Assembly: GCA_913058265.1 (NCBI GenBank)
Contig: CAJXPQ010000004.1
Span: 186,001 to 250,000 of the forward strand
DNA from: an uncultured Oligoflexia bacterium
GTDB lineage: Bacteria > Bdellovibrionota > Bacteriovoracia > Bacteriovoracales > Bacteriovoracaceae
Direction of reading: 5' to 3'
DNA length: 64,000 bases
The translations under genes were made by a program, and so were the position numbers. Each line of letters starts with the position of its first letter. Position 1 is the stretch's first letter. Below, piece by piece: positions 29,381 through 56,344 of this stretch. The notes under the pieces are model-generated. The model had not been told where the DNA came from. It did not search any database and saw only the letters and a program-made list of their open reading frames with translations.

Positions 29381-29783
29381 TCGCTTGCTTCTATTACTTT
29401 CTTTTTTCTTGATGTCTTCAACAGGGATTGCTCTTTACTTACTACATCATTACGGACAAGTAGAAACACCTTATGGTCTTAGGGCAAATTCTTGGGGCGA
29501 TAGTGTTAAACTTCTTCATAATATGAGTAATTTTATTTTTATATTTTCTATTGGTCTTATCTTTAATGAACATATTTATATGGGTCTCAAAGGCAGAAAA
29601 ATTGGAAATAAGTTTTCTGGTTACTTTATCACTTTGACTGTTCTTATATTGGTGATCACAGGGACTTTATTATTATATTTAAGCTCTGTAGATTTTAGAA
29701 CACTTGTTTCTGATGTACATTCCTACGTAGGGTTTGGAATGAGCATTGGGATGATATTACATGTATTTAAAAAGTTCACTTAA
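29367..29783 (+). CDS. Four-helix membrane protein, probable b-type haem carrier
   Basis: The gene most likely starts with TTG at 29367, overlapping the FMN-protein gene by 14 bases. The 138-residue product has about four membrane helices with histidines in positions that suggest haem binding: KLLHNMSNF, FNEHIYMG, DVHSYVGFG and GMILHVF. This pattern resembles DUF4405 or cytochrome b561-like proteins that reduce partner proteins across the membrane. It would pass quinone electrons to the FMN protein, by inference from position. The start is uncertain because no strong ribosome site is seen. Confidence 0.6.
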   Translation: MRKSNRLLLLLSFFLMSSTGIALYLLHHYGQVETPYGLRANSWGDSVKLLHNMSNFIFIFSIGLIFNEHIYMGLKGRKIGNKFSGYFITLTVLILVITGTLLLYLSSVDFRTLVSDVHSYVGFGMSIGMILHVFKKFT

Positions 29784-32700: not shown

Positions 32701-33009
32701 ACCTAGTCCATGAGCAATGATCAAATTTTGCTTATATGAGTTTAGGATATTATTTTGAAAGTGTTTGTTAAGAGCATTCTTTAAGTCGTTAACAGATGAA
32801 TATGTCTCCAGATTTTCGGAAGCATTAATTAATTCGCTAATGGCGGAAGATTCATAGAACTGTAAGCTCTTAATACAAGTCATATTCTCAACACTAGATT
32901 GATGAGATAAATTCTGACATATTTCAGATTGATATTTAAGACTTGTACCCTTTGCCAAAGGAGTAAGTAATATGCTAAGGAATAGGAATAAACTTAAAAA
33001 GTATTTCAC
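29776..33009 (-). CDS. Large exported protein of unknown function, 1077 aa
   Basis: A signal peptide (MKYFLSLFLFLSILLTPLAKG) is followed by a helical, Asn/Leu-rich region to about residue 390 with several cysteines. Residues about 396-434 form a long Ala/Gly-rich hydrophobic stretch (GTIGTAIGCVAFAPLCAVAA) of the kind seen in pore-forming or glycine-zipper proteins. The rest (about 450-1077) is soluble, with a Cys pair near GDDCIAYPL, and matches no recognised domain. A role as a prey-directed toxin or envelope factor is possible but not shown. It is convergent with the haem-protein gene, overlapping by 8 bases. A gene of similar style lies at 56345-58606. Confidence 0.7.
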   Translation of the reverse strand: MKYFLSLFLFLSILLTPLAKGTSLKYQSEICQNLSHQSSVENMTCIKSLQFYESSAISELINASENLETYSSVNDLKNALNKHFQNNILNSYKQNLIIAHGLGVNLNGIDDQINALPQNCGLSSELKPKLKEFANALPKDSQFDKSELKNLSKLRHEYKKRIRAAMIEHHRISTLLKEYEKNKPDDSETILGLRKDLLTLYQFYPILAHVSENGNRMTDLVNSDLAVIKGGRVQEDMAFNPYFTHQNINQILRLPSTHFINTRTEPTNTDTKRRIKIHDEPILNQEIDCNDGRKVDSSGKSYRIHAYEYIHHYFQCDNKTNHWVDTKINDYALSAVQGSFKGIEKLCDDNSCESFKLIPDQIGKIVSKVVDENAKTSLQKFICDCEIEKEDETFGTMVHLGIAAGTIGTAIGCVAFAPLCAVAAVAGIAGMSLGISDFNTTIDNTNRTIAQTRAISAVSDYQEDYLEQLKRLELAKENESTAYLFLPLEFLGAGGDFAVVTKTAYRLGKSNIKAFTSTPTPIKPDQVDIVSLNKQGPESIQKFREIARGVGGRDQFVKELENFDIAEPPITGDGLRGIWIDKAKNNNADVFLEIENGRLKRLNDLGDKEVVTSLTNMHKKLMLDKIKEFEIKYPGVKVDTYSDFKSMRFALTGDVSEAMKQDLTLMFRDTIGSMDAFVKEMTALGTFNFPPGELPHLWFSGGFGKSADQAGLASRSARCRTDVLCDIKLSDYANQTLIQNLNKHLGNVKLGQADIVDKLRGIITVPPLLTKFNDDFIPSVDLIEVIRKNLDLSSTDIGKLINQKFGVDLSDEVIFDLTGYINNLKRFEPGLWVETRKVASLKEAKHGGFSADFTGMGSYNIEQIAKDISGHKGSIDDLVSNLRKGEQTVTSFFNKKKKDFNDIIEQAFKDSNVPIEQVCSGDDCIAYPLKGLAPNELQKIEKNILLSVNRMSAPDGLRLSFIPPGASSNARSQLGTHGELIEKGIRKLTFGTSNNELPVLLGKDITVAVKMPKTVGKGKVKIMVASQQDLTPGDLERIESYAKMAIEKANDQAEDLARESGQLLTSTYNLESISYIK

Positions 33010-38049: not shown

Positions 38050-38078
38050 AACGCACCCGAATGGGTGCGTTCTTATTT
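38050..38078 (+). terminator. Intrinsic terminator of nrdJ
   Basis: AACGCACCC and GGGTGCGTT form a perfect 9-bp stem around a GAAT loop, followed by CTTATTT. It lies 91 bases after the nrdJ stop. Confidence 0.85.
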
Positions 38079-38406: not shown

Positions 38407-39114
38407 ATGAGTTTATTAGATCAGTTCCACGCTGGTGGATTTTTCATGTATTTTATTTTGTTATTTGGACTACTAACGATAGGATTTATTGTTGAGCGAG
38501 GAATTGCTTTATATAAGAATTACCGAGAAGTACCTGCTGACTTTAGAAGAAACGTACTTGCATTTATTGCATCTGGTGATTTTAAAGGTGCGAAAGAGTA
38601 TGTAGAGACAACAGCTGGTAATACTTCTGTTGGAAAAGTGGCTTTGACCGGAATTAAACTCAGAATGAGTGCAGCTGGTGATGAGGCGCTTCAGGCAAGA
38701 ATGGATGAGCAATTATCAAGAGAAATTTCATACTTTGATAAACGAACAGGCTTTTTAGCTATGTTTGGTAACGTTGCTACATTATTTGGTTTATTAGGTA
38801 CTGTTACAGGTTTGATTAGCTCATTTGCCGGTGTTGCAAGTGCTTCTCCTGTAGAAAGAGCAAACTTATTATCACAAGGGATCTCTGAAGCTTTAAACTC
38901 AACAGCTTTTGGACTAGTTGCCGCTATACCTGCACTTGTTGCTTTCGCAATATTTCAAAACAGAACTGAGCAAATTGTTTCAAAAATTACTGAATCTTGT
39001 AGTGAGCTTTATCACGACCTTCTTTTCTACACTGAAAATGAAAAAGAAGAATCAACTACAGAACTTTTGCCTAAGGCAAATGAAGTAGAAGCTGTAAGTA
39101 CAAGTAGAAACTAA
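38407..39114 (+). CDS. MotA/TolQ/ExbB-type proton channel protein (AglR-like)
   Basis: The ATG at 38407 follows GGAGG with a spacing of about 7 and is preferred over the frame's earlier ATG. The 235-residue product has one N-terminal membrane helix (FFMYFILLFGLLTIGFIVERG), a cytosolic domain with the typical ARMDEQLSREI, and two later helices in the block FGNVATLFGLLGTVTGLISSF and FGLVAAIPALVAFAIF, the signature of the ExbB/TolQ/MotA family. With the two ExbD-like proteins encoded next it should form a proton-driven inner-membrane motor. In this operon the best comparison is AglR of the Myxococcus gliding machine rather than a TonB or Tol system. Confidence 0.9.
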   Translation: MSLLDQFHAGGFFMYFILLFGLLTIGFIVERGIALYKNYREVPADFRRNVLAFIASGDFKGAKEYVETTAGNTSVGKVALTGIKLRMSAAGDEALQARMDEQLSREISYFDKRTGFLAMFGNVATLFGLLGTVTGLISSFAGVASASPVERANLLSQGISEALNSTAFGLVAAIPALVAFAIFQNRTEQIVSKITESCSELYHDLLFYTENEKEESTTELLPKANEVEAVSTSRN

Positions 39115-39140
39115 TAAATTAATTTATTTCAGGATGAAAT

Positions 39141-39623
39141 ATGAGAAAGAAAGTAGGATTAGGTTCAAAGAAAGATTTAAATGCAGATTTAAATTTAACT
39201 CCTTTTATTGACCTATTATCAACATGTGTTTGTTTTTTATTAATGACAGCTGTGTGGATTGAAGTTGGTAGTGTGGAAATAAAGCAAAGCCACGGTACAG
39301 AAGCTGCGGCTTCTAAGAAAATTTCATATGACTTAGATTTGGTCTATAAAACTCCGACCCAATTAAGCCTCAACCTTAAGAAAAATGGGCGGAGAGTAAG
39401 ATCGTTGAAAGTCAAAGCTGAAACTGCGGAAGGTTTTCAAATAAAGCTTAACCAGGTGATTAGCGAAAAAATCTTAACGATCAAAAATAAGGCGATTGAA
39501 ATAGCCACAGCAACAATCACACCTAGAACAACTGTTAATTATGGTCAGCTAATTGAAACTCTAGATACATTAAGAAAGAACAATATTACAAATATTGGTG
39601 TTCTTTCAGCGGGAGGAAGATAA
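39141..39623 (+). CDS. ExbD/TolR-type motor protein 1
   Basis: The 160-residue protein has a short basic cytosolic start, one membrane helix with the conserved proton-carrying aspartate (LTPFIDLLSTCVCFLLM) and a periplasmic domain ending in GVLSAGGR. Length and layout are those of ExbD, TolR and AglQ/AglS. Its stop overlaps the start of a second ExbD-like gene by one base (TAATG), so the two are coupled and may form a mixed pair in the motor, as AglQ and AglS do in Myxococcus. Confidence 0.88.
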   Translation: MRKKVGLGSKKDLNADLNLTPFIDLLSTCVCFLLMTAVWIEVGSVEIKQSHGTEAAASKKISYDLDLVYKTPTQLSLNLKKNGRRVRSLKVKAETAEGFQIKLNQVISEKILTIKNKAIEIATATITPRTTVNYGQLIETLDTLRKNNITNIGVLSAGGR

Positions 39624-40141
39624 TGAGATTAAATTCTACTCTTGTTGCATCTGATGCATTTGAAAAACATTTAATAAATCGAAAAAGAAAAAATTCTTGG
39701 GGAAAAAAAGCTGCTGTTTATGCGCTTATGTTAACCTCAATGGTTGATATGTTTTCAATGCTTGTTGTGTTTCTTTTACAGACTTTTTCTACATCTCCAG
39801 AAATACTTATTAATAAGGGACTCGTTCTTCCTAATTCAATTACTGCTTCACAAGTTCAAGAAGCTCCAGTTCTTTCAATAAATAAGGACGGCAATCTTTA
39901 CTTGGACCAAAAACTAGTTGGTTTAACAAAAAAGATACTTAAACAGCCTAATGGGTTGATGAAAGAATTAAATGTCATAAAGAACTCTTGGGCCGATCAC
40001 CATGCTGGACTTGCTTTTCCTGGTGAAATAAACCTCCAAGCTGATAAAGAAATTTCTAGTACAGTTGTCTCTCAGGTCATGGGAGTACTCACATCTGGAC
40101 AGTTTCAATCTATTCAACTTGCCGTCATAGGTTTAAGATGA
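39623..40141 (+). CDS. ExbD/TolR-type motor protein 2
   Basis: This 172-residue paralogue has a longer basic N-terminus (residues 1-35), a membrane helix with aspartate in LTSMVDMFSMLVVFLLQTF and a periplasmic domain of about 110 residues. The aspartate is kept, so it should carry protons too. It is clearly different in sequence from the first ExbD, which suggests distinct roles rather than recent duplication. It overlaps the preceding gene by 1 base and the following one by 4 (ATGA). Confidence 0.85.
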   Translation: MRLNSTLVASDAFEKHLINRKRKNSWGKKAAVYALMLTSMVDMFSMLVVFLLQTFSTSPEILINKGLVLPNSITASQVQEAPVLSINKDGNLYLDQKLVGLTKKILKQPNGLMKELNVIKNSWADHHAGLAFPGEINLQADKEISSTVVSQVMGVLTSGQFQSIQLAVIGLR

Positions 40142-42936
40142 TGAAAAACTGGGTTCTATTAACTTTATTATGTTTAAGCTCGACTCAGCTGTTTGCTGAT
40201 GAGTACTTAATACAAGAAATGGAATCACTTAAAAGCTCTCTTGCTCAAAATGATCCAGACAGGACAGAACTGAGTTTGCGCTTAGCTGACCTTTACTTTG
40301 ATGTCTCTATTCAGGAAGGTGATGGCAACCTTATTGAGAAACGTGAGAAATCATTGTTATTATATACCCATGTTCTTGAGGGGAAAGACGGACTTATTGC
40401 ACCCAAAGGTGAAAAAGCAACTCTAATCAAGTATCAGATGGCAAGAGTACTAAATAAGTTAAATCGCTTTGATAGAGCTCGAGACTTTTATAAGGCGGTC
40501 TACGATACAGATAAAGTTTCTAAGAAACTAAAACGTGAAGCTGCTTTCTCACTTGCAGAGTATTATGAGGAAAAGGTTAACTTCAATAAATCAAATCATT
40601 TTTATAAATCTGCAATCAACCTCTGTGAAACAATAGAATCATGTAACTATGCTCACTATAAAAGAGCTTGGCTTCTTTATAAAGAGGTTAAGTTAGAACT
40701 GGCCATTGCAGAATTAAAGCTATCACTTTGGGATAAAAACGGATCAGCTAGAGATAAGGTTATTAAAGATCTGCTGTTATTCTTCTCTGCAAATATGACC
40801 AATGGTGAGCCTGAGCTTGCGTATATTAAAGAGCTTCGCCAGAAAACGGGTAAAAAGAACTTAGTTAGAGATCTTGTTGAATCATTTTATGCTACTGGAA
40901 ATCGTATTGCTGGTTCAGTTGTTCTAGAGCAGTTAAATGCTGAAGAGCCCGATGCATTTTATGAAATGCGTTTAGTGGAAGAGTTTTATGGCTTTAGAGA
41001 AATGGATCGAGTTAAGAAATATTTATCTGCTCTTGATAAAAGATCTCAAAGAGATATTCCAACCGAAAAAGAAGAAGCTAAAGAATTTAAGGCCATGCTG
41101 AAAAGAATTGTTGTTCAACTTGACTCAGAAGTTGAACAGGATAAAAGCTTTACGCCAGTTCTTCTTAATGTCATTGATAGGTATTTAGTTTTTTATCCAA
41201 ATGATGATATGAGAAAGAAATTACAACAAGGCTGGCTTAAGGTTCAAACGGATAGACTCAAGAAAATTGATCGTTTAGCACTTTGGATCGATGAAGATAT
41301 AAAATTTGGTTTCAAGTCAGAAGAGATACGTAAGCTTAGACAAACTAGGCTTGCTTTAGCACAAAAAGAAAAACTAAATGAGATCGTTATATTAGAATCC
41401 TTAGCAATTGCGAGTATTTTAAAAGGAACTCCTGAAGCGCGTGAATTTAATTACACCGCCGCTCGTGAGTACTATAAAGACAAGAGATATGATGAGGCTC
41501 TTGAGCTATTTATTCCTTTAGCAAAAATTGAAAGCTTCACTACCAGTGATAAGTTTTCTTTACTCTCACAAAATCTCGCTTTGGATATTTATAATATTAA
41601 AAAAGATTATGCATCAATCTTAGCTCAGACTAACTCATGGCTTAGTATTGAAGGGGAGAAAGCCCCTAAAAGTATCAAAAAAGAATTAAAACAAATGAAG
41701 CTTGTTAATATTCAGGCCGAATTTGAGCAAACAGCTGCTCTGGGTGAGACTAAAGAAGCTCTAGATAAATTCTTTAGCTATTGTTATTCAAATGTATTCA
41801 TAGAAAAATCTTGTTCTAACGCTAAAATATTATCAGTAAAGCTACAGGATCAAGCAAAGCTAGTTACTCTACTTGAAAGTTCTCCGGTGAAGTCACTAAG
41901 GGATGAGAAAGCCCTTATGGTAGAATATGAACTGATGGGACGATTTACTGACTCTGCTCGTATTCAAGAGAAGTATAATCTCAATAAAAATGCAGATATC
42001 CCTACATATCTTAAATTAGCTGTTCTTTATGAAATTGATGCTGACTTCAAAAACAGAAATAGAATTCTCAAGAAGATGATGGCAAAATTAAAGCGAGACA
42101 AAAGGATTGAGCCTTCTTATGAAGCCGCCATTCTCAAGACTCTATCTGATGCTGATTTAATTAATACTCAAAGTCTTGTACTTCCTTGGTCTGTTGATAA
42201 TAAGTTAGCAATCGCAAGAAGATTAAGTTCTCAAAAAACAAACTCTAAACTTGATAAAATAATAATGTCACAAATGGAGTACTCTGGATCCAGATGGTCT
42301 AAAATTGTACTTTCTAAGATTGAAAAGCAATACAAAAGAATTTCAAAACTAACTTTTCATGGTCGTAACTCTGAACGTCGATTTAAGCGTAAGGTGAAAG
42401 CAATAGAAAAGCTCATTACTCTTGCTAAGCCTTACTTAGATGGAGCAAATGCTGAGACAAGAATATACTTGTTAGACATGATGAAGCTTTCTTATCAAAA
42501 CTTAGGTGCAGAAATACTTAATACTCCACTACCAGATGGTCTGACTGAAGATGTACTTATGCAAGTTCAAGCAAAGCTAACGACTATGGCGACACCATAC
42601 TCAACTGTGGCAGCTGACTATGAAAACCTACAGTCTGAACAATTCGTAGCACTAAGTGAAGAGATAAGAGCAGCTATTTCGAACAATATTTCTACCACGC
42701 CAATGACATATTCGAACTTTATTAAAGACGATGAATTTAAAGATTTTAATACCTCTGGAATGAGTGTAAGTGCGATCGATTTTAAAGGGCTTGAAGAAGC
42801 GAAAGCAGAGTTACTACAGACTCCAGGGTCTGTTACCACACTGGCAAAAATGGAGAGTTTTTTTAAAGAACAGAATAGTGAAAGAATAGCATTATATTTT
42901 ACAGGACGTATAAATAGCTTAAAGGAAAAACAATGA
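40138..42936 (+). CDS. Exported TPR-repeat protein, 932 aa
   Basis: A signal peptide (VLLTLLCLSSTQLFA) starts a long helical protein. TPR-like helix pairs appear throughout, for example KYQMARVLNKLNRFDRARDFYKAV and EYYKDKRYDEALELFIPLA, and the N-terminus reads as an early TPR array. It should be a periplasmic scaffold. The Myxococcus Glt machine includes large TPR proteins in the periplasm and outer membrane (GltD/E/I group), and this one lies in the matching operon position. It starts with ATG overlapping the ExbD stop by 4 bases and ends overlapping the next gene by 4. Confidence 0.8.
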   Translation: MMKNWVLLTLLCLSSTQLFADEYLIQEMESLKSSLAQNDPDRTELSLRLADLYFDVSIQEGDGNLIEKREKSLLLYTHVLEGKDGLIAPKGEKATLIKYQMARVLNKLNRFDRARDFYKAVYDTDKVSKKLKREAAFSLAEYYEEKVNFNKSNHFYKSAINLCETIESCNYAHYKRAWLLYKEVKLELAIAELKLSLWDKNGSARDKVIKDLLLFFSANMTNGEPELAYIKELRQKTGKKNLVRDLVESFYATGNRIAGSVVLEQLNAEEPDAFYEMRLVEEFYGFREMDRVKKYLSALDKRSQRDIPTEKEEAKEFKAMLKRIVVQLDSEVEQDKSFTPVLLNVIDRYLVFYPNDDMRKKLQQGWLKVQTDRLKKIDRLALWIDEDIKFGFKSEEIRKLRQTRLALAQKEKLNEIVILESLAIASILKGTPEAREFNYTAAREYYKDKRYDEALELFIPLAKIESFTTSDKFSLLSQNLALDIYNIKKDYASILAQTNSWLSIEGEKAPKSIKKELKQMKLVNIQAEFEQTAALGETKEALDKFFSYCYSNVFIEKSCSNAKILSVKLQDQAKLVTLLESSPVKSLRDEKALMVEYELMGRFTDSARIQEKYNLNKNADIPTYLKLAVLYEIDADFKNRNRILKKMMAKLKRDKRIEPSYEAAILKTLSDADLINTQSLVLPWSVDNKLAIARRLSSQKTNSKLDKIIMSQMEYSGSRWSKIVLSKIEKQYKRISKLTFHGRNSERRFKRKVKAIEKLITLAKPYLDGANAETRIYLLDMMKLSYQNLGAEILNTPLPDGLTEDVLMQVQAKLTTMATPYSTVAADYENLQSEQFVALSEEIRAAISNNISTTPMTYSNFIKDDEFKDFNTSGMSVSAIDFKGLEEAKAELLQTPGSVTTLAKMESFFKEQNSERIALYFTGRINSLKEKQ

Positions 42937-43193
42937 TTAGGATTATCACAGTTATTTCAATTCTTGTTTTTTTTAGCTTTAGTGAAGTGACATTTGCTAA
43001 AGATAAAAAAAATGTAAAGTTTCGCCAAGGTAAGCGAATTGATTTTGCCTCTCTCTTGATTGAGGGACAAAAAAAGAAAGCCGATTACTCTGTTGTTACA
43101 GGGAACTTAGGTGAGATCGATATGGGATTATTAAAGTTAAGAGAAGACTTTAATGACCTGATGGCAAATGACTTACAGGAGGAAATTCAATGA
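42933..43193 (+). CDS. Small exported protein, 86 aa
   Basis: The product has a signal peptide (MIRIITVISILVFFSFSEVTFA) and a 64-residue basic-to-acidic mature part beginning KDKKNVKFRQGKRIDFASL. No domain is recognised. It overlaps both flanking genes by 4 bases (ATGA at each end), so it is tightly coupled to the TPR protein and the TonB-like protein and is probably a fixed part of the complex. Its position is like that of the small GltF gene in Myxococcus, but similarity in sequence is not claimed. Confidence 0.75.
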   Translation: MIRIITVISILVFFSFSEVTFAKDKKNVKFRQGKRIDFASLLIEGQKKKADYSVVTGNLGEIDMGLLKLREDFNDLMANDLQEEIQ

Positions 43194-44392
43194 TAGCTAT
43201 TGAAACCATGGATGGTGAACTTGTAAAAATAATCAAAAATACTAAGGAAGCAACTTTTGGCTTCCATAAATTATTTGGTCTTACAAGCCTGGATAAAGCT
43301 ACCAAAAGAGCAGAAATAAGAAAAAGACAAGGCTTTGAGTTTACTTCAACGGATTGGCATTGCCAGTTTAAGATCACTCAAAAGGAAAATGGTCTTAGTA
43401 TTTCTGGAATGAATGACTGTGAAGTAAAAGCGATTGATAAATCAATATGGTCTTTAGTGACACCTCTTGGGGACTTTAAAATTTCAAATATGTCTACTGC
43501 CGTTATATCAGATGATCTTTTCACTGAGATTGATGAAAACTCATGGATGGGAAGATGGACGGAACTAATTATCTTAGGGGTTTTTATTCTTATTCCAATT
43601 CTTTACTTTATGCAGCCATCAGAAGTTATTGATGAAAAGAAAGAAGAGAAAAAGAAAGAACCTATAACAGTAACACTTGTTAAACAGGTTAAGACAGTTC
43701 AGATTGCTCAAAAGAAGCCTTCTATAAAAGTTAAGCCTTTAACCGATTCTCAAATCTCTAAGCGTGCAGTTAAGAGAAATCTTGGATTCTTAGGTCTTGT
43801 TGGTTCTAAGGATCTTTCAAAAGCAGTTGGTGGTGTTCCTCAGAAGCTGAAAAAAGCAACAGCAGGAGCTGGTAAGGGCGGAGACGCTGGATCTGGTGGA
43901 GAAGTTCTTACTGGTCTTGGAAAAGGCCTTAAAAAAACGACTGTTGGGAATACTGGAGTGGCCGGGCTTGGTGGAATTGGTACTAAAGGCGCCGGCGGCG
44001 GGGCCGGAGGTTATGGAAATACAATGGTTGCTTCAGGTGAGGGGAAAGGAATTTCTGCTATCTCTGTTGCAAGTAACGATATGGTTCTTGATGGTGGTTT
44101 AAGTCGCTATGCGATTAATGCAACTATTGCAAAATATCTAAGCCAAGTAAGAAGATGTTACGAAGCTCAATTAAATAAAAAGCCAGGTTTGGAAGGACTT
44201 GTAACAGTTAGCTTTCAAATTAATGGGGCCGGTAGGTTAGATTTCTCAAGAGTATTGAACTCAACTCTTGGAAATGCAGCTGCTGAGAAATGTATAACAA
44301 CTAAGATGATGGGATGGCAGTTTCCAAAGCCTAAGGGTGGCGTGAAAGTACCTGTCAAATATCCATTTATGCTTAGGCCAGTTGGGACTTAA
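43190..44392 (+). CDS. Trans-envelope AgmX/PglI-domain protein (GltG/GltJ-like, TonB-type)
   Basis: Residues 1-120 are cytosolic and beta-rich, residues about 125-142 form one membrane helix (LIILGVFILIPILYF), then come a charged stretch, a Gly-rich flexible linker (about 220-300) and a C-terminal AgmX/PglI domain (about 306-400) with RRCYEAQLNK and AEKCITTKM. This architecture, cytosolic module, one helix, flexible arm, TonB-like tip, is that of GltG and GltJ, which link the motor to the outer membrane in Myxococcus gliding. AGGAGG precedes the ATG, the strongest ribosome site in the operon. The two cysteines of the tip may pair. Confidence 0.8.
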   Translation: MIAIETMDGELVKIIKNTKEATFGFHKLFGLTSLDKATKRAEIRKRQGFEFTSTDWHCQFKITQKENGLSISGMNDCEVKAIDKSIWSLVTPLGDFKISNMSTAVISDDLFTEIDENSWMGRWTELIILGVFILIPILYFMQPSEVIDEKKEEKKKEPITVTLVKQVKTVQIAQKKPSIKVKPLTDSQISKRAVKRNLGFLGLVGSKDLSKAVGGVPQKLKKATAGAGKGGDAGSGGEVLTGLGKGLKKTTVGNTGVAGLGGIGTKGAGGGAGGYGNTMVASGEGKGISAISVASNDMVLDGGLSRYAINATIAKYLSQVRRCYEAQLNKKPGLEGLVTVSFQINGAGRLDFSRVLNSTLGNAAAEKCITTKMMGWQFPKPKGGVKVPVKYPFMLRPVGT

Positions 44393-44407
44393 TTAGGAGT
44401 ATATATA

Positions 44408-46438
44408 ATGCGTCTTTTAGCACTTTTATCTTTATTTATTTTTATCTCTTGTGAGCAAGATCCTTACCCTGAGGGTGGTAAACGACTTACACCTCGTACT
44501 GATCTTCAGGAGAAACCAGGTCTTTCAATGATTGTTTCTCCTCTCGTAGAACTTACTGAGGGAAGAAAGAGTGTTGTTAAGATTCAAGTCTCTGTTCCGC
44601 CTCCAGGACTTCCTGAAGTTAGAGTTGAAGGATTACCATTAGGGGCCACCTTTGATGCTGATCGATTAGAGATTAATTGGACTCCAGGCTTTTTCGACGG
44701 AAATGATGTAGAAAACCCTACAATTAAAACGAGAAGTTATCCTATAACAGTTTTCTTAGCATCATCTGAGGCACCAAAGGATAATATTTCAGAGAACACA
44801 GTATTAAAGGTTAATGATAAGCCTAGAGAGTTTACTGTAGATGGTTATAGTTCATTTAGTGCAAATGAAGGTCAACCATTTGAATACCGTTTTAAGTTAA
44901 GTAATAAAGATTATCCTCGCGGACCTTTCCAGGTTAGTATTAGTGGGATGCCAGCGAACACAATCGTTGAGCAAATCTCTGAAGTTGAATATAAAATTTC
45001 AGGTGAAGCTGATCATCACCATGTTCGTATTAATGAAACGAATTCTTGTTCAGGAAGAAATTGTCTAGGGTATAAAGGTCAGATTACGGCGTTTAATCCA
45101 GCAAATCATAAAACAACAAAAGACATTGATATTAAAGTTCAGGATAAGCGCTTAGATGTTACTTTGGTTGCACCAGAGGATATGGAGCAAGGTTTAGATA
45201 TAACATTTCAGGTTTCTGCTTATGACTTGAACGGTGAAGTTGCACCTCAAATAGAGCTATCTTCTGATGAACCAGAGTTTGGAGAATTTTCAACAAAGAT
45301 TGTCAAAGACCAAGAGAATAATTCTTCTGTTTTAAATGTAACTTGGAAGGATATTCCACCAACTTACAATAACACGAAACGATTTTTTAGCTTCAAAGCT
45401 TGTGTGCTAGATACCAGTAGAAGGTATAGAAACTGTAACCAAGAAACCACAGATGTAAAAATTGTTGTAAAAGAAAGAAAGCCACCTACATTCGATAGGT
45501 CTAATTGGGCGGCCGGAGTTATTAAATACTTAAAGCATAAAGAGTACGATACAGAATATATTTATATTCAAGATGGTGATTCATTACAGGACATAACAAA
45601 CGTAAAAATTATGCCAGAGTCTATGAGAAAGTATGTCTCTTGGAACAATGATAAATTAACATTAAAGAATTTTGATAAAGAAGGAATTTATCAATTCTCA
45701 CTTGTTGCAAAATCTGAATACAATATGTCTACTGCAGAAAGCTTTGTTGTAGAGGTCTTCTCTAAAAATAGAAGCAAAACTCTGTATTTTACCGACTCAA
45801 CAAGAGATAATGAAGCAAAGTTCTACAGAGATACTCTTAAGAATATTGAACTCATGAATCCAATGCTACAAATTCTTAATGAGAGAAACCTCTCTGGCCG
45901 TGAAATCCTTGTTATTGGAACTTCAATGTTAAGTGATGACTCAATGAGTACTGAGATCACTAGGGCGATGGATAAGATTAAGAACATTATTGTGGCAACA
46001 CCATTAATTGAAAATATGCCAAAGAAATTTTTAGATAAACTTAAAATTGAAAATAAAGTCGCAATCATTGGACGCTATACTGATCTTCCGGATACTCCAG
46101 ATCTTAGTACTATGAACTTCGTTTACAGAAAGGACTTTGATATTCCAAGTATGGATATCGGACTTCAGTTAAAGGCAACAGTAGAATCAGATGATCCTAT
46201 TATATTCTCAACAGGTGTTGATACTAATAATTGTGCTGATGTATTAGAGCTTACTGATGCACAGAAGCTAACGAGATACAAAATCGGCGTTATATGTAAA
46301 AGAGAGAACGGCGGAAGACTTGCTGTCTTAGGAACTGAGTTTGCTGACCTTAAAGCAAGTTTAGCAGATAAAGATATACCATCAAAATGGTTTCAAAAGA
46401 TGCTCTCTACGAAAATCTTCATCGGAAGGAATAAATAA
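44408..46438 (+). CDS. Lipoprotein with Ig-like repeats, 676 aa
   Basis: The signal peptide ends FIFISC with the lipidated cysteine at residue 15; the next residue is Glu, suggesting outer-membrane sorting. The mature protein shows repeated beta-sandwich-like units of roughly 100 residues, with PLGATFDADRLEINWTPG typical of cadherin-like or Ig-like domains in bacterial surface proteins. The last 200 residues are a different, alpha/beta region. In the operon it occupies the place of an outer-membrane lipoprotein such as GltK. AGGAG precedes the ATG. The gene overlaps the barrel gene by 1 base. Confidence 0.75.
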   Translation: MRLLALLSLFIFISCEQDPYPEGGKRLTPRTDLQEKPGLSMIVSPLVELTEGRKSVVKIQVSVPPPGLPEVRVEGLPLGATFDADRLEINWTPGFFDGNDVENPTIKTRSYPITVFLASSEAPKDNISENTVLKVNDKPREFTVDGYSSFSANEGQPFEYRFKLSNKDYPRGPFQVSISGMPANTIVEQISEVEYKISGEADHHHVRINETNSCSGRNCLGYKGQITAFNPANHKTTKDIDIKVQDKRLDVTLVAPEDMEQGLDITFQVSAYDLNGEVAPQIELSSDEPEFGEFSTKIVKDQENNSSVLNVTWKDIPPTYNNTKRFFSFKACVLDTSRRYRNCNQETTDVKIVVKERKPPTFDRSNWAAGVIKYLKHKEYDTEYIYIQDGDSLQDITNVKIMPESMRKYVSWNNDKLTLKNFDKEGIYQFSLVAKSEYNMSTAESFVVEVFSKNRSKTLYFTDSTRDNEAKFYRDTLKNIELMNPMLQILNERNLSGREILVIGTSMLSDDSMSTEITRAMDKIKNIIVATPLIENMPKKFLDKLKIENKVAIIGRYTDLPDTPDLSTMNFVYRKDFDIPSMDIGLQLKATVESDDPIIFSTGVDTNNCADVLELTDAQKLTRYKIGVICKRENGGRLAVLGTEFADLKASLADKDIPSKWFQKMLSTKIFIGRNK

Positions 46439-47136
46439 TGAAAAGATTATTACCTGTTTTATTAGTTTTAAGCCTAAGTGCATTTGCTGCTGAAGATGAA
46501 GCCAAGTCAGAACTTTCTCAAAAACTTGATAGTCTCAATATTCCTTCGGATAAAGTGACACCTGTTTTATCTCAAGACAAACTCTACGCAGTTAATACGA
46601 GATACTCTTCACTTAATAAGAGACATGAGATTACAATCTCAGGGGCAAATAACTTTACCTCTGATAGTCACCTGACTACCAGGAATAGTGGTGCTACTTA
46701 TAGATTTCATATCAATTCGAAGTGGTCTATCGGGATGAGATACTCTCATTACTTTAATGAGCTTAGTGGAGCTGGAGAAAAGCTATTTGAAAGTAAGGAG
46801 CTCTTGCCGGACTCTGATTATGCTTTAAAAAGTACTGAAGGCTTTGTTAATTTTAATACAGTGTATGGAAAACTACGTTTAACAAGAGATACGATTGTTT
46901 ATTTTGATCAGTATATATCTCTTGGTTATGGTGATATTGCTCTCTCTAGGGGAGAGACAAAAATGGCGACAGTCGATCTAGGCTTTGCTTTTTGGCTAGG
47001 TAAGCATGCATCCTCTAGAATTGGTCTGCGTAATGAATTTTATGAGCAGGAAAAAATAAACGGTCCTGAGAATGTTCAGAATGCTTTAGGCTATGTTGAA
47101 TTTGGATACTTATTCGGTGAGGGAGCTCGCATATGA
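46438..47136 (+). CDS. Outer-membrane beta-barrel protein (OMP_myx_plus/GltA-B-like)
   Basis: A signal peptide (MKRLLPVLLVLSLSAFA) is followed by a plug-like segment and then amphipathic strands ending with GYVEFGYLFG and a short tail. It resembles the outer-membrane beta-barrel family seen mainly in myxobacteria and relatives, with strand blocks such as HEITISGANNFTSDSH and GATYRFHINSKWSIGMRYSHYF. GltA and GltB, barrels of the Myxococcus gliding complex, are the natural comparison. It overlaps its neighbours by 1 and 4 bases, so it is made together with the lipoprotein and the second TPR protein. Confidence 0.78.
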   Translation: MKRLLPVLLVLSLSAFAAEDEAKSELSQKLDSLNIPSDKVTPVLSQDKLYAVNTRYSSLNKRHEITISGANNFTSDSHLTTRNSGATYRFHINSKWSIGMRYSHYFNELSGAGEKLFESKELLPDSDYALKSTEGFVNFNTVYGKLRLTRDTIVYFDQYISLGYGDIALSRGETKMATVDLGFAFWLGKHASSRIGLRNEFYEQEKINGPENVQNALGYVEFGYLFGEGARI

Positions 47137-48650
47137 AATATTGGCTTTTGGCCATTATTAGTGTTCAAGTTATGGCCGCTGATGGGACTTCTAAACTTCT
47201 TGCAACAGGTGAGAGTAACCTTGAATTAGATAAGGCGATTCAAGTTCAAAAACAACTCACACTTAATGATGTTTTTGCTGTCCAAGCATATGGACAGATG
47301 AGAGCCTTAGGAGTTAATGATAAAGATATTAATAAATTCTTTGATCATGTTTTTGCCGAAGACTTTAAGGCTGCCTTAGCTGTATTTCCTTCGGATACAA
47401 AAAATACCAAATTAAATAGGCTTTTATCTGCCACAAAAATATATCTCTTTTGGAAGCTTGATCTCTCTCAAAACTTTGTTCACTCATGGGTAAATGAAGC
47501 AAGTAGCTATCCATTTTTAAATTCAGAACTTGGTATAGCACTTGATCAGTTAATCTCTAAGGATGCTTCTGCATGGTTAATCAAGAAAGCGATTGTCCTA
47601 GATAAAAAGGATAAAGCTTATATAGATGCAATTGCGCACTATCAATCAAAATTTAATTACTCTTTACAAGCTTATAGAAATCTTAGAAAGGGTTCAAAAT
47701 CTCTAGAGTGGATTAAGTTTTTACCAAAGTTAGATCCTTTAAGAATAAAGCTTAGTGAGAGTGTCATCTTACAATTTGCTAAAGAAGGCAAGCTTGCAGA
47801 TGCTGCAAAAGTTTTAAAAGAAGTTGTTGAGCCTGCACTTAAAAATGAAAAAGATATTGAGAAAATCGCTAACCATCATCTAATGCTTGCAAGACTACTT
47901 TACCAAGCGGCTGCATATGATGCTTCTTTAGAATACTACTCATTAATTCCAGATGAATCTAGAAGATACCTTAACTCACAAGTTGAGTCATTATGGATTG
48001 AGCTTAGACAAAATAACCTTCCCCGAATAAAAGGAAAACTTGCTTCGCTAGAATTGGATGTTTTCAATGACACCTTTAACCCAGAAGTTTATCTTGTGAG
48101 TGCAATGGCCAGTTTGAAATTATGTCAGTTCAAAGATATTGATGCTGCCTTTAAGTCCTTTGTTCGTGTTAATCAAAAATTTATTAAGGAAATTGATGTA
48201 AATCTAGCAAGTGATACTCCAAAAGTTGTAAGTACAAAGGATTTTTATATTAGACTATTAACTCGAGCTAAGATTCTCCGTCTTAAAGAAATAGCAACTT
48301 TATCCAAGCTTAATAGAGATAATGATATTGATATTTTAAATTCTTATATTACTTCTGCAGCAAATTTCAAGGTTTCAGAGGCAAAACGTTCATGGTCAAA
48401 TAGAAAGAAAGTTTTAGAGGCTACAATTAGACGCCTTAGATTTGTAAAAGTTGAATACTTATCAAAAATGAGACGACTACGAAATAAAATGGCGATATTA
48501 CAACCCAAAGGTACTGACTCTGTTAAGACTATCAGCTCAGGGTTAGATAAAACGGATAAACTTGAGTTCCCTCACGAAGGAATTCTTTTCTCTGATGAGC
48601 TCTTTAATTTGGATGCTGATGTTATGAAACTATGTGTGGAAGGAAAATAA
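47133..48650 (+). CDS. Exported helical-repeat (TPR-like) protein, 505 aa
   Basis: The N-terminal signal peptide (MKYWLLAIISVQVMAAD) is followed by an all-helical protein with TPR-like pairs in the middle, for example MLARLLYQAAAYDASLEYYSLIPD, and a basic coiled-coil-like segment near residue 420-470. It should be periplasmic. In Myxococcus the gltK-gltB-gltA-gltC order ends with a periplasmic TPR protein (GltC) behind barrel genes, and the order lipoprotein-barrel-TPR here matches. The ATG overlaps the barrel gene by 4 bases; the stop is one base before the VWA gene start. Confidence 0.75.
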   Translation: MKYWLLAIISVQVMAADGTSKLLATGESNLELDKAIQVQKQLTLNDVFAVQAYGQMRALGVNDKDINKFFDHVFAEDFKAALAVFPSDTKNTKLNRLLSATKIYLFWKLDLSQNFVHSWVNEASSYPFLNSELGIALDQLISKDASAWLIKKAIVLDKKDKAYIDAIAHYQSKFNYSLQAYRNLRKGSKSLEWIKFLPKLDPLRIKLSESVILQFAKEGKLADAAKVLKEVVEPALKNEKDIEKIANHHLMLARLLYQAAAYDASLEYYSLIPDESRRYLNSQVESLWIELRQNNLPRIKGKLASLELDVFNDTFNPEVYLVSAMASLKLCQFKDIDAAFKSFVRVNQKFIKEIDVNLASDTPKVVSTKDFYIRLLTRAKILRLKEIATLSKLNRDNDIDILNSYITSAANFKVSEAKRSWSNRKKVLEATIRRLRFVKVEYLSKMRRLRNKMAILQPKGTDSVKTISSGLDKTDKLEFPHEGILFSDELFNLDADVMKLCVEGK

Positions 48651-48651
48651 A

Positions 48652-49683
48652 ATGAAAATATTATTACTTTTAACCTATATCTTCTCATTTTCTGGTTGTA
48701 ATAAAGCAGATGACTATGTCTACCTAAACACACCACCAAGGCAGGAAAAAAGAGATGATGTTCTAAAGGTGAGGACACTTCTTCGTAATGCTGAAATTGA
48801 TATCGTATGGGTTGTAGATAACTCTGGATCTATGTCAACGATTCAAAACAATATCATAGCCAATTCTAGTCTCTTTATGGAAAGTTTTGTGAAAAATAAC
48901 TTTATGAAGTGGAGAATGGCAGTAGTTTCAACTGATAGTAATCAGCCACCTTTTTTAGGAATGCCATATAACTCAACAGACCCACAATACTTTGATAATA
49001 ACTCTCTTGATCCTGTTCCTACATTTTCACAGGCGATTAGAAACCTTGGAACAAACGGATCTGCCTCTGAGTATGTTTTTTATAACTCATTTCGATTTAT
49101 GATTGACCAAACTTATAATCATTTCTTTAGGCCTGATGCTCACCTTGCAGTCATTATGGTTACAGATGAAGAAGAGCAAAGTGAAAGAAAATACGGTGAT
49201 CAATTTAAAGCAACGAATCTCATAAGTACTGTGAGTGCCTTAAAGAATCCAGGTACGATCATTCGTTATTATGGGGCATTCGACTTCAAAGATTTACAAG
49301 ATTGTGATAGTTGGGAGCCATACGCCAATTCTCCTTTCGAAGAAATCATTGATGCTACTGGTGGAATTCATATGTCTGCTTGTACTGCCGACTTCGGTAA
49401 GGATCTTGCTGAAATAGGTAAGGATATTATTAGTCTTGTTGATGCACCTGCAGTTCTATTGGCAGAAAGACCTAAGGTCGACACGATCAAAGTCTTTTAT
49501 GGTGATGAAGAGGTTCCAGGTGGTAGACAAACTGACGGGGCATTTTGGTACTATAATCAATATTATAATACTTTAAACTTTTATAACCTTGATTTTATTC
49601 CTGCTGATGATGAAGATGCTGCTATTAGAGTGGCCTATGACGTGGACGATGGAATAGATCGATCTGAAGATGATGAGGACTAA
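48652..49683 (+). CDS. von Willebrand A-domain lipoprotein (CglB-like candidate adhesin)
   Basis: The signal peptide ends FSGC (lipidated Cys16) and residue 17 is Asn. Residues about 50-240 form a VWA domain with the MIDAS motif VVDNSGSMS (Asp56, Ser58, Ser60) and the later VTDEEEQSE acidic loop, so a metal-dependent binding site is intact. A short beta-rich tail follows and the C-terminus is very acidic (DDEDAAIRVAYDVDDG). In Myxococcus CglB, a VWA outer-membrane lipoprotein, is the adhesin coupled to the gliding motor; here the VWA lipoprotein is encoded inside the motor operon, which is unusual. The ATG at 48652 has GGAAAA 4 bases upstream. Confidence 0.8.
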   Translation: MKILLLLTYIFSFSGCNKADDYVYLNTPPRQEKRDDVLKVRTLLRNAEIDIVWVVDNSGSMSTIQNNIIANSSLFMESFVKNNFMKWRMAVVSTDSNQPPFLGMPYNSTDPQYFDNNSLDPVPTFSQAIRNLGTNGSASEYVFYNSFRFMIDQTYNHFFRPDAHLAVIMVTDEEEQSERKYGDQFKATNLISTVSALKNPGTIIRYYGAFDFKDLQDCDSWEPYANSPFEEIIDATGGIHMSACTADFGKDLAEIGKDIISLVDAPAVLLAERPKVDTIKVFYGDEEVPGGRQTDGAFWYYNQYYNTLNFYNLDFIPADDEDAAIRVAYDVDDGIDRSEDDED

Positions 49684-49686
49684 AAA

Positions 49687-50277
49687 ATGAAATTATTTAC
49701 TCTCTTAATCTTACTATCTTTTAATACTTATGCCTTAAATCCAGGTGACAAAGCTCCTGACTTTAACTTAATTGATCAGAATGGGAAGAACTTTAAGCTA
49801 TCTAGTCTGAAAAATCAATTCGTTGTTCTTGAATGGTTTAATCATGGCTGTCCTTATGTAAAAAAACATTATGGAAGCAATCATATGCAAACTATCCAAG
49901 CACTCTATGGGCATAGCGATCTTGTTACTTGGGTAACAATTCTTTCATCTGCTAAAGGAAAGCAAGGTTATCTTGGGTCGGATGAAGAGGTGATCTCAAA
50001 GATGAACGAGCTAGGTATCAAATCTAAATACTTCCTTCGTGATACAGATGGTAAGGTTGGACAGCTTTACGGTGCAAAAACAACACCTCATATGTATATC
50101 ATTGATGCTAAGATGAAGCTTCGTTATGTAGGGGCGATTGATTCTGTTGTATCTACTAATACTAGTGATATTAAAGGTGCTACTAACTATGTGACTAGTG
50201 CCTTAAGTAAGCTAATGCTTAATGAAGAGCCAAGTCCGGCCAAAACTAAGCCATATGGTTGCTCTGTTAAGTACTAG
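49687..50277 (+). CDS. Exported redoxin (AhpC/TSA-like), 196 aa
   Basis: The protein has a signal peptide (MKLFTLLILLSFNTYA) and a thioredoxin-fold domain starting NPGDKAPDFNLIDQNGK. The active site reads HGCPYVKKHY, with a single cysteine, where peroxiredoxin-like proteins have theirs; the other cysteine is in the tail (PYGCSVKY). This subgroup is often annotated as thioredoxin family or alkyl hydroperoxide reductase-like. It should act in the periplasm, perhaps on disulfides or peroxides. It is the last gene of the operon, 3 bases after the VWA stop, and faces a cysteine-rich giant lipoprotein. Confidence 0.78.
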   Translation: MKLFTLLILLSFNTYALNPGDKAPDFNLIDQNGKNFKLSSLKNQFVVLEWFNHGCPYVKKHYGSNHMQTIQALYGHSDLVTWVTILSSAKGKQGYLGSDEEVISKMNELGIKSKYFLRDTDGKVGQLYGAKTTPHMYIIDAKMKLRYVGAIDSVVSTNTSDIKGATNYVTSALSKLMLNEEPSPAKTKPYGCSVKY

Positions 50278-50279
50278 AG

Positions 50280-50768
50280 TTATTTATTGAGCTTTGCTCC
50301 AAGTTCTTTTCCGTGTTTTACACGTGCCTTGGCATTTTCAAATCTACGTTTATCATCTTCGGTTATAGGCTCAACTTTAGGTACAGCAACAGGCTTACCA
50401 AATTCGTCGATGGCAACAAATGTTAAATAGGCTTTGGTCGTCATTCTTGAGACACCAGTAATGGGATTCTCACTCTCAACTTTTACACCAATAATCATAC
50501 TTGTATTTCCAGCATAATTTATTGAAGCGTGAATAATCACATGTGATCCTATATTAATAGGGGACCTAAATTCAATATCATCAATATGAACAGTTACAAC
50601 TGGGTTATTGCAATGTCTAGCGGCACACATGGCAGCTGCAATATCAATCCAACTCATAACTTTTCCACCAAAAATTGTCCCATGTGCATTGGTATCACTA
50701 GGCATAACCATTTCACGCATAATGACTTCACTTTCTCTTGGTGTTTTAGACTTCTTAATCATATTCAT
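50280..50768 (-). CDS. Hotdog-fold acyl-CoA thioesterase (YciA/BFIT type)
   Basis: The 162-residue protein has the acyl-CoA thioesterase signature: PSDTNAHGTIFGGKVMSWID, then AARHCNNPVVTVHIDDIEF. It should hydrolyse acyl-CoA esters in the cytoplasm. AAGGA lies just before the ATG at 50768, and the next-upstream gene on the same strand (the giant lipoprotein) ends 8 bases before, so they may share a transcript. It is convergent with the redoxin gene, 2 bases apart. Confidence 0.88.
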   Translation of the reverse strand: MNMIKKSKTPRESEVIMREMVMPSDTNAHGTIFGGKVMSWIDIAAAMCAARHCNNPVVTVHIDDIEFRSPINIGSHVIIHASINYAGNTSMIIGVKVESENPITGVSRMTTKAYLTFVAIDEFGKPVAVPKVEPITEDDKRRFENAKARVKHGKELGAKLNK

Positions 50769-50776
50769 ATAGTTCC

Positions 50777-53700
50777 TTATTCATCTGCACAATAGATATG
50801 GTGATTCCATCTGACTCCACTGGTAAACTTTGCATAACCAGCTTCTTCGTTATTACCACTTGTCCCTTGATCGCCAACTTCATCAACTATAGAGTTAAGT
50901 CCACCATTGCCATTACGGAAAGGGTGTTGTGGGCTAGCTTTAAATACTCCAAATGCTCCGCCCCTTACAGTTGATCCAGATGAGCAGTATTCATTTCCTA
51001 TTGCCTGAATTTTTTGTAGTACTTCTGTGCTAGTAAGTGGTTCACCAGTTACAGTGTCGAAATCAGATACTTCTAGACCTTGAATCTCATCATTACTTTC
51101 AAGACCTTCTCCAGATATAAATTTATTTAAATAAACATTTAAATCTGTTCTCGCTGGTAGCTTACAAATTTTATTTCCTTCTTCACTGTCGTCATCGATT
51201 GCAAGTCCTGAACAACAAAGACTATTGCTATCGTTCTTACCAATTGTGGCACCAAGCTCTCTACAACATTTAAATTGATTGTCTGAGAATATTTGATTGT
51301 GATCTACAAGCTCTTGTGTTGCCGTTAGATTTATATTTAAATCGTTTGCAGCGAAAGGCGCACCTGCAGTATCAAAAGCAAATGGTGGATCAACATTTGG
51401 ATTGATAAAGGTCTTTGAGTGATTAATAAAATCCATCACAGTTTTTAAGGCTTCACCACCTTCACTTTCTTTGAAAATGCCAGGTACCATTTTTTGATAG
51501 ATATCGTTACAGTAAAGAGGTTCGTAGGCCATTTGCGGTACTCCCAGATACTCGAACTTTGCAAGTTTCTTAAGGTAGTACATAGCATTTCCTGGGGCAG
51601 CAGATCTTCTGTGATCCAGAATACTAGCATTATCTACTGAGAGCCCTCCTGGGTTTTTAATTATTTCCCAAGCAAGTGTTCCAACAGGAACCCACTTTAT
51701 TTGAAGACCTAAGTCATCTTTTTCAAAGTTCGCTGCAACTCTTGAATCATTTGAATATCCAACTCTAATAGACCTAGTATCTTTATCATATGAGTAGCAA
51801 CATTTATTATTTGCTGCTCCATCACAAACTCCACTAGTCCATGAGTCTAGCGGGCCACAAATCCCACCATGTCCTGCGGCGGTACAATCAAAGTTTGTAT
51901 TAGCAGCACTATTATTAACACATTCTATAACAGCACCTGGAGAAGTTAAGCTGGGTAATTCCACTCTTAAAAATGTGAAGATGTCACCATCAGCAGTTGT
52001 ACCTGTTAAATCAGGATCAAATGTCATATAGCTTGGTAGTCTTGTTATAAGGTTTTTCTTTTCAATATCATTATCTTCATTTGACCAATCAAGTACAAAG
52101 GTATCTGTGGCAACAGAGTTTTCGCCCGTATACGGAATTAAAATATCATAAGAATATAAGTTAGTCGTCCAGAGGTCATCCATGATTGAAGAGTCAGAGT
52201 TAAATAGGGTAAAGCCAAGAAATGTTCTATTAAGTCTTGGTCTTTCAACAAAAAAATCTTCAATTGCCGTTATGCCCTGTTGAATACATCCACCTTCTTC
52301 TAAGCTTCCTGCACGACACATAAAAGGTTTATCAAAATCTAGTTGCGCTTGTGTTAAGTTATATGCTTCAGCGTTCTCAGAGAGATATATGCCTGAACGG
52401 TAGTTTAGACATTTTAAATCATTTGGATCAATATTTAGTCTGTTGCGTGACCAATCATTAGTACCATCTTCAAATTCTCTGACCCAGTTTGAACCACAAC
52501 AAGTTTTTGCTGCCGTATCATGAACTGTTTTCCATTGAAGGATATCCGTAATATTAGGGGAGTTATCAAGAGTCTTATCCCCACCATTATCAGCATTTGC
52601 ACTAGGTCGCGTAAGATTTGATGCACCTGTCACAAGATTAATACTCGAATCTACAGTAGAGTACCTAGAGTAACGTGTAGGTTCAGTAGGGTTGAGACCA
52701 CCGAAAATATGAGTGCTTAATCCTGTGGATTCTGTCGCATTTGGAGAGTCCTCAGTGTACATAGTTAAACTTTTGCCAACTTCTCTACAGCAACGATTAT
52801 TTCCAAGGTTGTATTCAAAATATTTAGCTTCATCATTTATACTCGGTTCTGCTTCTCCTTGACTACAAACGAGATATTCTTCGTAATAAGATTTTTCAGC
52901 AAGGTTTCCAAAGAATGATAGAGGTGCAAGGTCAGCATTGTCGGCCATTAATTTATTAGGTGAACAATCTAGGTCTGAGTGACAAACAGCGCCTGCTTTT
53001 CTCAGACAAGCTTCACCGGCCAGAGTAGGTTCAATTTGTACATTATCTGTACTTAGACTTTCCCCTTCTATGGTTTTAAAAGCTGAGAATGGGTGCAGTT
53101 CATCAAATACAACAGTAGTAGATAATAGAGGAGCAGCATCATTAGAAAGTGATTCTAGACCACAAGAATTTTGGGCAAAACCAAGCCTTTCGGCCACTTC
53201 TGCTTTCGAAAGAGTTCCGGAGACGCCATCTATAGTAAAGTTTGAATTTAGAAAGTCATCTTGAGTGTGAACATAGTTTCCATCAATATCTAGCATTGGA
53301 CATGAGCTATATCTTAGCTGGGTGAATAGAGTGGGGTTACATCCCCCTATTTGTGAAATATAATCGGTTCTAAATTTTGGATCAGCAGACTGATGTTGAA
53401 CATCAGGTTCCCAGTCCTTAGTTGTCGTTCCTGTTTGATAATCAGGTAGAAGTTTACCTGGGCGACAAAGACCTACTTTTCCAGCAGCTGAAGAATCAAA
53501 AGTTAAAACACTTTCCTCTATGGCCGTTTGTACGGATTCAGGTAGTTGGGTCAAGTTGCTGCCAGTGTTCATATAATGTTTAGGGCGTCCAAGAACGTCA
53601 GCATCCATTCCAAAAAAATGATTATTGCTTACAATTAATTCATCTAAGGGTTTACCAAAACGTGCCACTTCATCATTGAAAGCGGCGGTATTAGATAGAC

Positions 53701-56224: not shown

Positions 56225-56344
56225 TCCCAATTACTTATCGGTAATATTGCCCATGATTTTAAAGGGTTAAGTTTATTAGCAGATGGTAGGAATATTTGTT
56301 CAGATTACCGAATTATAACTTCTAAGTGCTTGATAGTTAGTTGT

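Follow-up and report, generated by a model that had tools for sequence, protein, structure and literature searches.

In Myxococcus, the genes of the Agl-Glt gliding machine lie in three loci (G1, G2 and M1). AglR and GltG of this machine make contact in two-hybrid assays, and in Geobacter and in non-Deltaproteobacteria the core glt/agl genes occupy a single region (PMC3169522). In Bdellovibrio bacteriovorus HD100, four tonB/agl 'gliding' operons were published in 2010–2011 (PMC2797640, PMC3169522). According to a 2025 proteome, the proteins of one of them, Bd2368-2377, are up at prey exit and those of Bd0411-0421 early in the bdelloplast (PMC12546842), and cells require the AglS protein Bd0838, encoded in a sister operon, to attach to prey (PMC6561027). 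For gliding in Bdellovibrio, a 2026 review described motor, adhesin and force path alike as unidentified (PMC13104615). Here we describe an eleven-gene operon at positions 38407–50277 of a 64,000-nucleotide stretch of DNA (hereafter the window; positions 186,001 to 250,000 of contig CAJXPQ010000004.1) from an uncultured Oligoflexia bacterium of the family Bacteriovoracaceae. It belongs to an operon type of the Bdellovibrionota in which GltE is absent, and within that type its sequence appears to place it in a branch of its own.

An Agl-type motor

All eleven open reading frames (ORFs) lie on the + strand, at the same positions as in an earlier note on this DNA. That note's account of eleven co-directional genes was borne out ORF by ORF, and the ORF coordinates confirm its six junction overlaps of 1 or 4 bases (AglQ/AglS 1, AglS/GltD 4, GltD/GltF 4, GltF/GltG 4, lipoprotein/barrel 1 and barrel/GltC 4 bases). 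The first gene encodes an AglR-type proton channel subunit of the MotA/TolQ/ExbB family (235 residues, 38407–39114; Pfam PF01618, E = 1.9e-27) and the next two encode ExbD/TolR proteins, one of AglQ type (160 residues, 39141–39623; PF02472, E = 3.6e-14) and one of AglS type (172 residues, 39623–40141; PF02472, E = 9.7e-14). The channel Glu and both Thr residues of the AglR-type protein align with those of Escherichia coli ExbB/TolQ, the transmembrane Asp of the AglQ-type protein aligns with E. coli ExbD/TolR and with Myxococcus AglQ, and that of the AglS-type protein is present and aligned with E. coli (the HD_2376 row, a wrong ORF, was left out of this alignment).

The earlier note had named phylogenetic grouping of the ExbB/ExbD proteins with those of TonB-dependent transport or Tol-Pal as the outcome that would speak against its interpretation. 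In a tree built with 52 proteins of the MotA/ExbB type, taken from the host genome, a same-genus genome, HD100, other phylum members, Myxococcus sp. CA023 and E. coli, the AglR-type protein falls instead inside the Agl/Glt clade (support 98/95), apart from TolQ and ExbB, and the interpretation thus passes the note's own test. The protein also scores below the NCBIfam equivalog cut-offs for TolQ (84 vs 221 bits) and ExbB (70 vs 206 bits). Within the clade, where support is modest, the window lineage forms a group with the Bd0412 and Bd2368 types (84/80), and this group is joined by Myxococcus AglR with the Bd0828 type (80/82). Myxococcus AglR was itself identified from gene order and from lengths matching those in a published table (PMC3169522).

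A scaffold without GltE and without an FHA domain

Downstream of the motor genes lies the gene of a 932-residue protein with a signal peptide (40138–42936), a predicted periplasmic TPR-like scaffold that has no family name of its own in Pfam or NCBIfam. Its family profile matches the GltD-position ORFs of the Myxococcus-type G1 cluster (E = 5e-48) and of Bd0828-0838 (E = 2e-64), and we therefore identify it as a GltD homolog. The small exported protein that follows (86 residues, 42933–43193) is assigned to GltF/CglF on three grounds: an NCBIfam match to CglF that is weak alone (NF033764, E = 0.0033), the invariable position of its gene between those of GltD and GltG in related loci, and family-profile matches to the CglF-position ORFs of Bd0828-0838 (5e-9) and Myxococcus G1 (4e-11). 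Signal peptides, as well as the lipoboxes given below, were called by eye.

The GltG homolog (400 residues, 43190–44392) consists of a small, non-FHA cytoplasmic N-terminal domain, one membrane helix (118–141), a Gly-rich linker and a TonB-like C-terminal domain. The GltG model NF033760 (E = 2e-41) matches only residues 148–399 and only from position 395 of the 650 in the profile, which indicates that the protein lacks the FHA part; Pfam, NCBIfam and a fold search gave no FHA match for it. The AgmX/PglI tail is above its cut-off (NF033768, E = 3e-27, 94 vs 40 bits), and the predicted fold of the C-terminal domain is that of TonB (TMt up to 0.72); the N-terminal domain gave just weak PH-like fold matches. 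Two further scaffold and envelope components are encoded after the first lipoprotein gene: an outer-membrane beta-barrel of the TIGR04565 family (232 residues, 46438–47136; E = 1.2e-20, over its cut-off) and an exported helical-repeat protein homologous to GltC (505 residues, 47133–48650), whose NCBIfam match (NF033756, E = 1.1e-8; 3e-12 for the HD100 counterpart) is below the equivalog cut-off.

A search for GltE that covered the window operon and 16 further loci of the operon type gave no match; GltE homologs were found in Bd0828-0838, in the Myxococcus clusters and in the other Glt clusters of the host genome. There are two such additional Glt-like clusters, one on contig C2 (L063, ~194–205 kb), where GltG has an FHA domain, and one on contig C5 (L064, ~130–141 kb), where AglRQS is divergent from the scaffold genes. 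GltC resembling that of these two clusters was found in most genomes of the window's family. The operon contains no gene for GltH, GltI, GltJ or GltK (GltH, GltI and GltK were not searched genome-wide), and the three myxo_SS_tail matches over cut-off in the host genome all lie within AglRQS clusters.

Lipoproteins and redoxin

The operon encodes two lipoproteins. The Ig-like lipoprotein (676 residues, 44408–46438; lipobox FISC) is built of tandem beta-sandwich domains followed by an alpha/beta domain at ~450–676. Its AlphaFold model is confident (pLDDT, the predicted local distance difference test score, of 88), and Foldseek matches it best to arrays of cadherin and of Ig domains and to an RTX adhesin from bacteria. 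These matches of a predicted structure would fit an extended stalk, although the fold is common. The additional alpha/beta domain of ~225 residues occurs in the full-length members of the window lineage only and is absent from HD100; Foldseek with the whole lipoprotein returned no class for it, as the Ig array dominates the search.

The second lipoprotein (343 residues, 48652–49683 from an ATG start, with a GTG at 48634 also open; lipobox FSGC) carries a VWA domain (PF00092, E = 0.003), part of which matches the Bdellovibrio model for an adhesin with a metal-ion-dependent adhesion site (MIDAS; NF052240, E = 1.2e-8). The MIDAS residues D56, S58, S60 and D172 are invariant in 27 aligned proteins, and we regard this lipoprotein as a candidate surface adhesin. 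No CglB-named model was among its NCBIfam matches, although no search was aimed at CglB. A Myxococcus VWA ORF of ~418 residues (L260) was considered as CglB and the link was dropped, as NCBIfam gave it no name. The host genome has another VWA lipoprotein gene (L256, contig C2, ~204 kb; 407 residues), which adjoins the Glt cluster on that contig; one TAA was counted within the stretch that was matched.

The last gene encodes an exported redoxin of the AhpC/TSA family (196 residues, 49687–50277; PF00578, E = 7.8e-12). It is found at the operon end in just three loci, two from the window's genus and one from a related genus (L047, L232 and L233), and is thus a local extra that does not belong to the conserved machine.

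Conservation and distribution

All ten gene families, the redoxin aside, were recognized in one order in 23 of 28 related loci; in two more the order is unchanged and the slot of the Ig-like lipoprotein holds an unassigned ORF of ~400–500 residues, and the remaining three are cut by contig ends. The ten-gene order is therefore kept in 25 of the 28. The VWA lipoprotein gene is present in every related locus that extends that far, and a recognizable Ig-like lipoprotein in 26. The gene cluster is a real conserved unit, beyond chance.

GltG of the operon type (E ≤ 1e-80) occurs in 140 of 369 genomes of the phylum, and operon-type GltC in ~30 of the 115 genomes of the window's family. In the myxobacterial phylum, none of 195 genomes gave operon-type GltG (E ≤ 1e-70, a search with no positive control within the group).

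A third lineage of Glt-type motor operons

Four GltG-like genes, at 0.39, 0.79, 1.40 and ~2.28 Mb, were found in a genome (G072) that we take to be HD100, and we infer that their loci are Bd0412-0420, Bd0828-0838, Bd1473-1483 and Bd2368-2377. The loci at ~2.28 Mb and 0.39 Mb match the first ten genes of the window operon one by one: Bd2368-2377 and Bd0412-0420 both read AglR-AglQ-AglS-GltD-GltF-GltG-Ig lipoprotein-barrel-GltC-VWA, without GltE. If numbering is assumed to run along the chromosome, with Bd2368 as the VWA protein and Bd2377 as AglR, the published signal-peptide flags on Bd2369, 2370, 2373 and 2374 (PMC12546842) fall on GltC, the barrel, GltF and GltD, as expected. The operon type has thus been in print since 2010.

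Despite the common layout, the window operon differs from Bd2368-2377 in its Ig-like lipoprotein, which has 676 residues rather than 386 and alone has the extra C-terminal domain, in the kind of N-terminal domain of GltG, and in the redoxin gene that follows. A tree of eight joined proteins and a smaller mixture-model tree both resolve three groups: the Bd0412 type, the Bd2368 type and the window lineage. The last comprises 15 loci, all from the window's family, with full support and a long stem. The approximately unbiased (AU) test rejects a clade made up of the window lineage and the Bd2368 type (p-AU 1.8e-5) and with it one-to-one orthology with Bd2368-2377; expression data for Bd2368-2377 should therefore be carried over to the window only with care. 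One-to-one orthology with Bd0828-0838 had been our first guess, because that operon also has eleven genes, and it is ruled out by gene content and position. Bd0828-0838 shares the genes for AglR/Q/S, GltD, GltF, GltG, GltC and the barrel with the window; unlike the window, it has GltE, a 707-residue GltG and two barrels, with no VWA gene recognized, and its AglR type groups with Myxococcus AglR. Judged from sequence, then, the window operon appears to be a separate third, modified lineage of Glt-type motor operon, one that we did not find in the literature searched.

Comparison with the Myxococcus systems

The profile searches bear out the assignment of the operon proteins to the Agl-Glt class. 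The Myxococcus Agl-Glt machine and the window operon share homologous AglR, AglQ, AglS, GltD, GltF, GltG tail and GltC; the window set lies in one operon, whereas the Myxococcus genes are spread over their three loci. The likeness to the Myxococcus machine drawn in the earlier note therefore holds for the proteins and the motor clade. It does not extend to the whole machine: Myxococcus has GltE, the FHA domain of GltG and GltH-K, none of which is in the window operon, and without GltE the seven-gene core (gltC, gltD, gltE, gltG, aglR, aglQ, aglS; group B of Luciano et al. 2011) is incomplete. Nor is packing into one operon the notable new form that the note took it for, since the four HD100 operons and the single core region in Geobacter and in non-Deltaproteobacteria were already published. 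Its interpretation was partly supported, right in kind but not in its claim of novelty.

The Myxococcus Nfs system is powered by the Agl motor and resembles the window operon in that its set of scaffold genes sits together in a single cluster. The nfs-like cluster examined (L228) differs in that GltE is present and that no VWA or Ig-like lipoprotein genes were recognized in it. A contig titled Comamonas sp. KCTC 72670 (L068, BNCN01000011.1, genome G292) gave a 99% match to Myxococcus MglA and a full GltG match of 1083 bits; its label is probably wrong, and we treated it as a myxobacterium.

Operon borders and neighboring genes

The ribonucleotide reductase gene upstream is followed by its putative intrinsic terminator (38050–38071, + strand), which has 6 G-C pairs in a 9-bp stem and then the short T-rich tail CTTATTT; this terminator marks the 5′ border and sets the operon apart from that gene. 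A consensus scan found no strong terminator within the operon, although promoter and terminator matches of this kind are weak evidence. The next gene downstream, for a thioesterase (50280–50768), is convergent to the operon. Beyond it, on the – strand, a Cys-rich lipoprotein of 1817 residues (50777–56230) has no Pfam or NCBIfam match; relatives at the same place in L047, L232 and L233, from the genus and a near genus, suggest that it may be linked to the operon. Two more large proteins on the – strand, of 753 residues (56345–58606) and 1077 residues (29776–33009), likewise have no Pfam or NCBIfam matches.

Discussion

On balance, we lean toward the view that the operon encodes a proton-driven, trans-envelope machine of the Agl-Glt class for slow surface traction, either in gliding or in moving against prey remnants. 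In the inner membrane, AglR, AglQ and AglS would make up an ion channel; the membrane Asp is kept in both ExbD-type proteins. Proton flow would move GltG, whose TonB-like tail would reach the periplasm, and GltD, GltF and GltC would hand the force on to the barrel in the outer membrane and to the Ig-like and VWA/MIDAS lipoproteins. These, the VWA protein presumably at the cell surface, would grip a surface or the prey envelope. The chain from motor to scaffold follows the published Agl-Glt model; the step from scaffold to lipoproteins is our own proposal.

Several lines of evidence point to traction: the matches to GltG, GltC, TIGR04565 and, weakly, CglF, the GltD profile, the place of the motor in the Agl clade with its residues kept, the ten-gene order in HD100, the expression of Bd2368-2377 and Bd0411-0421, the attachment role of Bd0838, and, if it serves gliding outside Myxococcus too, MglA in the genome. 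MglA of the host (L248, contig C6) has 64% identity to Myxococcus MglA; counting the protein of HD100 (L250, ~3.61 Mb), which belongs to a different family than the host, the range is 64–65%. The sequence of the Myxococcus query was confirmed by a 100% match. Other observations weigh against traction. The operon is missing GltE, and it has none of GltH-K, reported as essential for Myxococcus gliding (PMC3169522). Several myxobacterial Glt-like clusters are not for motility (PMC3169522), and Nfs uses the Agl motor in spore-coat assembly (PMC3858216). The VWA lipoprotein could not be equated with CglD, as the NF033765 match is confined to the VWA core and reaches 34 bits against a cut-off of 400. 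The literature searched holds no gliding phenotype for a deletion in this operon type.

The Nfs precedent (PMC3858216) raises the alternative that a trans-envelope motor of this class transports envelope cargo or a surface polymer instead of propelling the cell. With the GltG-family profile, the nfs-like Myxococcus cluster L228 (4e-54) scores a little above the gliding cluster G1 (1e-45), and HD100 has several paralogous operons that differ in expression (PMC2797640). However, the operon encodes an adhesin-like MIDAS VWA protein and a large Ig-like lipoprotein and has no polysaccharide genes, and we consider cargo transport unlikely, if a serious competitor. An energized uptake or secretion system resembling TonB-ExbBD, serving growth inside prey or on surfaces, would account for the TonB-like fold of the GltG C-terminal domain, and Lambert and colleagues left TonB-like transport open for the HD100 operons (PMC2797640). 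We judge it quite improbable: the AglR-type protein does not group with ExbB/TolQ, the GltD/GltC/GltF scaffold is without counterpart in TonB systems, and the operon holds no TonB-dependent receptor, for which its 232-residue barrel is far too small. Still further from the data is an envelope-stability system of the Tol-Pal kind, which has the motor superfamily in common with the operon and which we regard as highly improbable, given that TolB, Pal and TolA are absent from the operon, that the AglR-type protein falls far short of the TolQ cut-off and outside TolQ in the tree, and that a different ExbB/TolQ-like gene, on contig C8 of the host genome, does fall with TolQ/ExbB, if loosely.

Within the traction interpretation, we tentatively suggest a more specific possibility, namely that these operons constitute a Bdellovibrionota-specific Agl-Glt subtype without GltE and the FHA control domain and with a built-in MIDAS VWA adhesin and Ig-like lipoprotein, the latter having gained its extra alpha/beta domain in the window's family. 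Such a self-contained adhesive traction motor might have evolved separately from the gliding machinery of myxobacteria and may be used to move over or within prey.

The operon kind itself was already published; what is new is the recognition of an operon type without gltE and without the GltG FHA domain, with the window copy as an apparent third lineage. In the genomes searched, this type is confined to the phylum and patchy within families. A ten-gene operon with its own motor and candidate adhesins provides a short list of candidates for deletion, and from the division into three lineages one can tell which findings in HD100 may be transferred to relatives and which may not.

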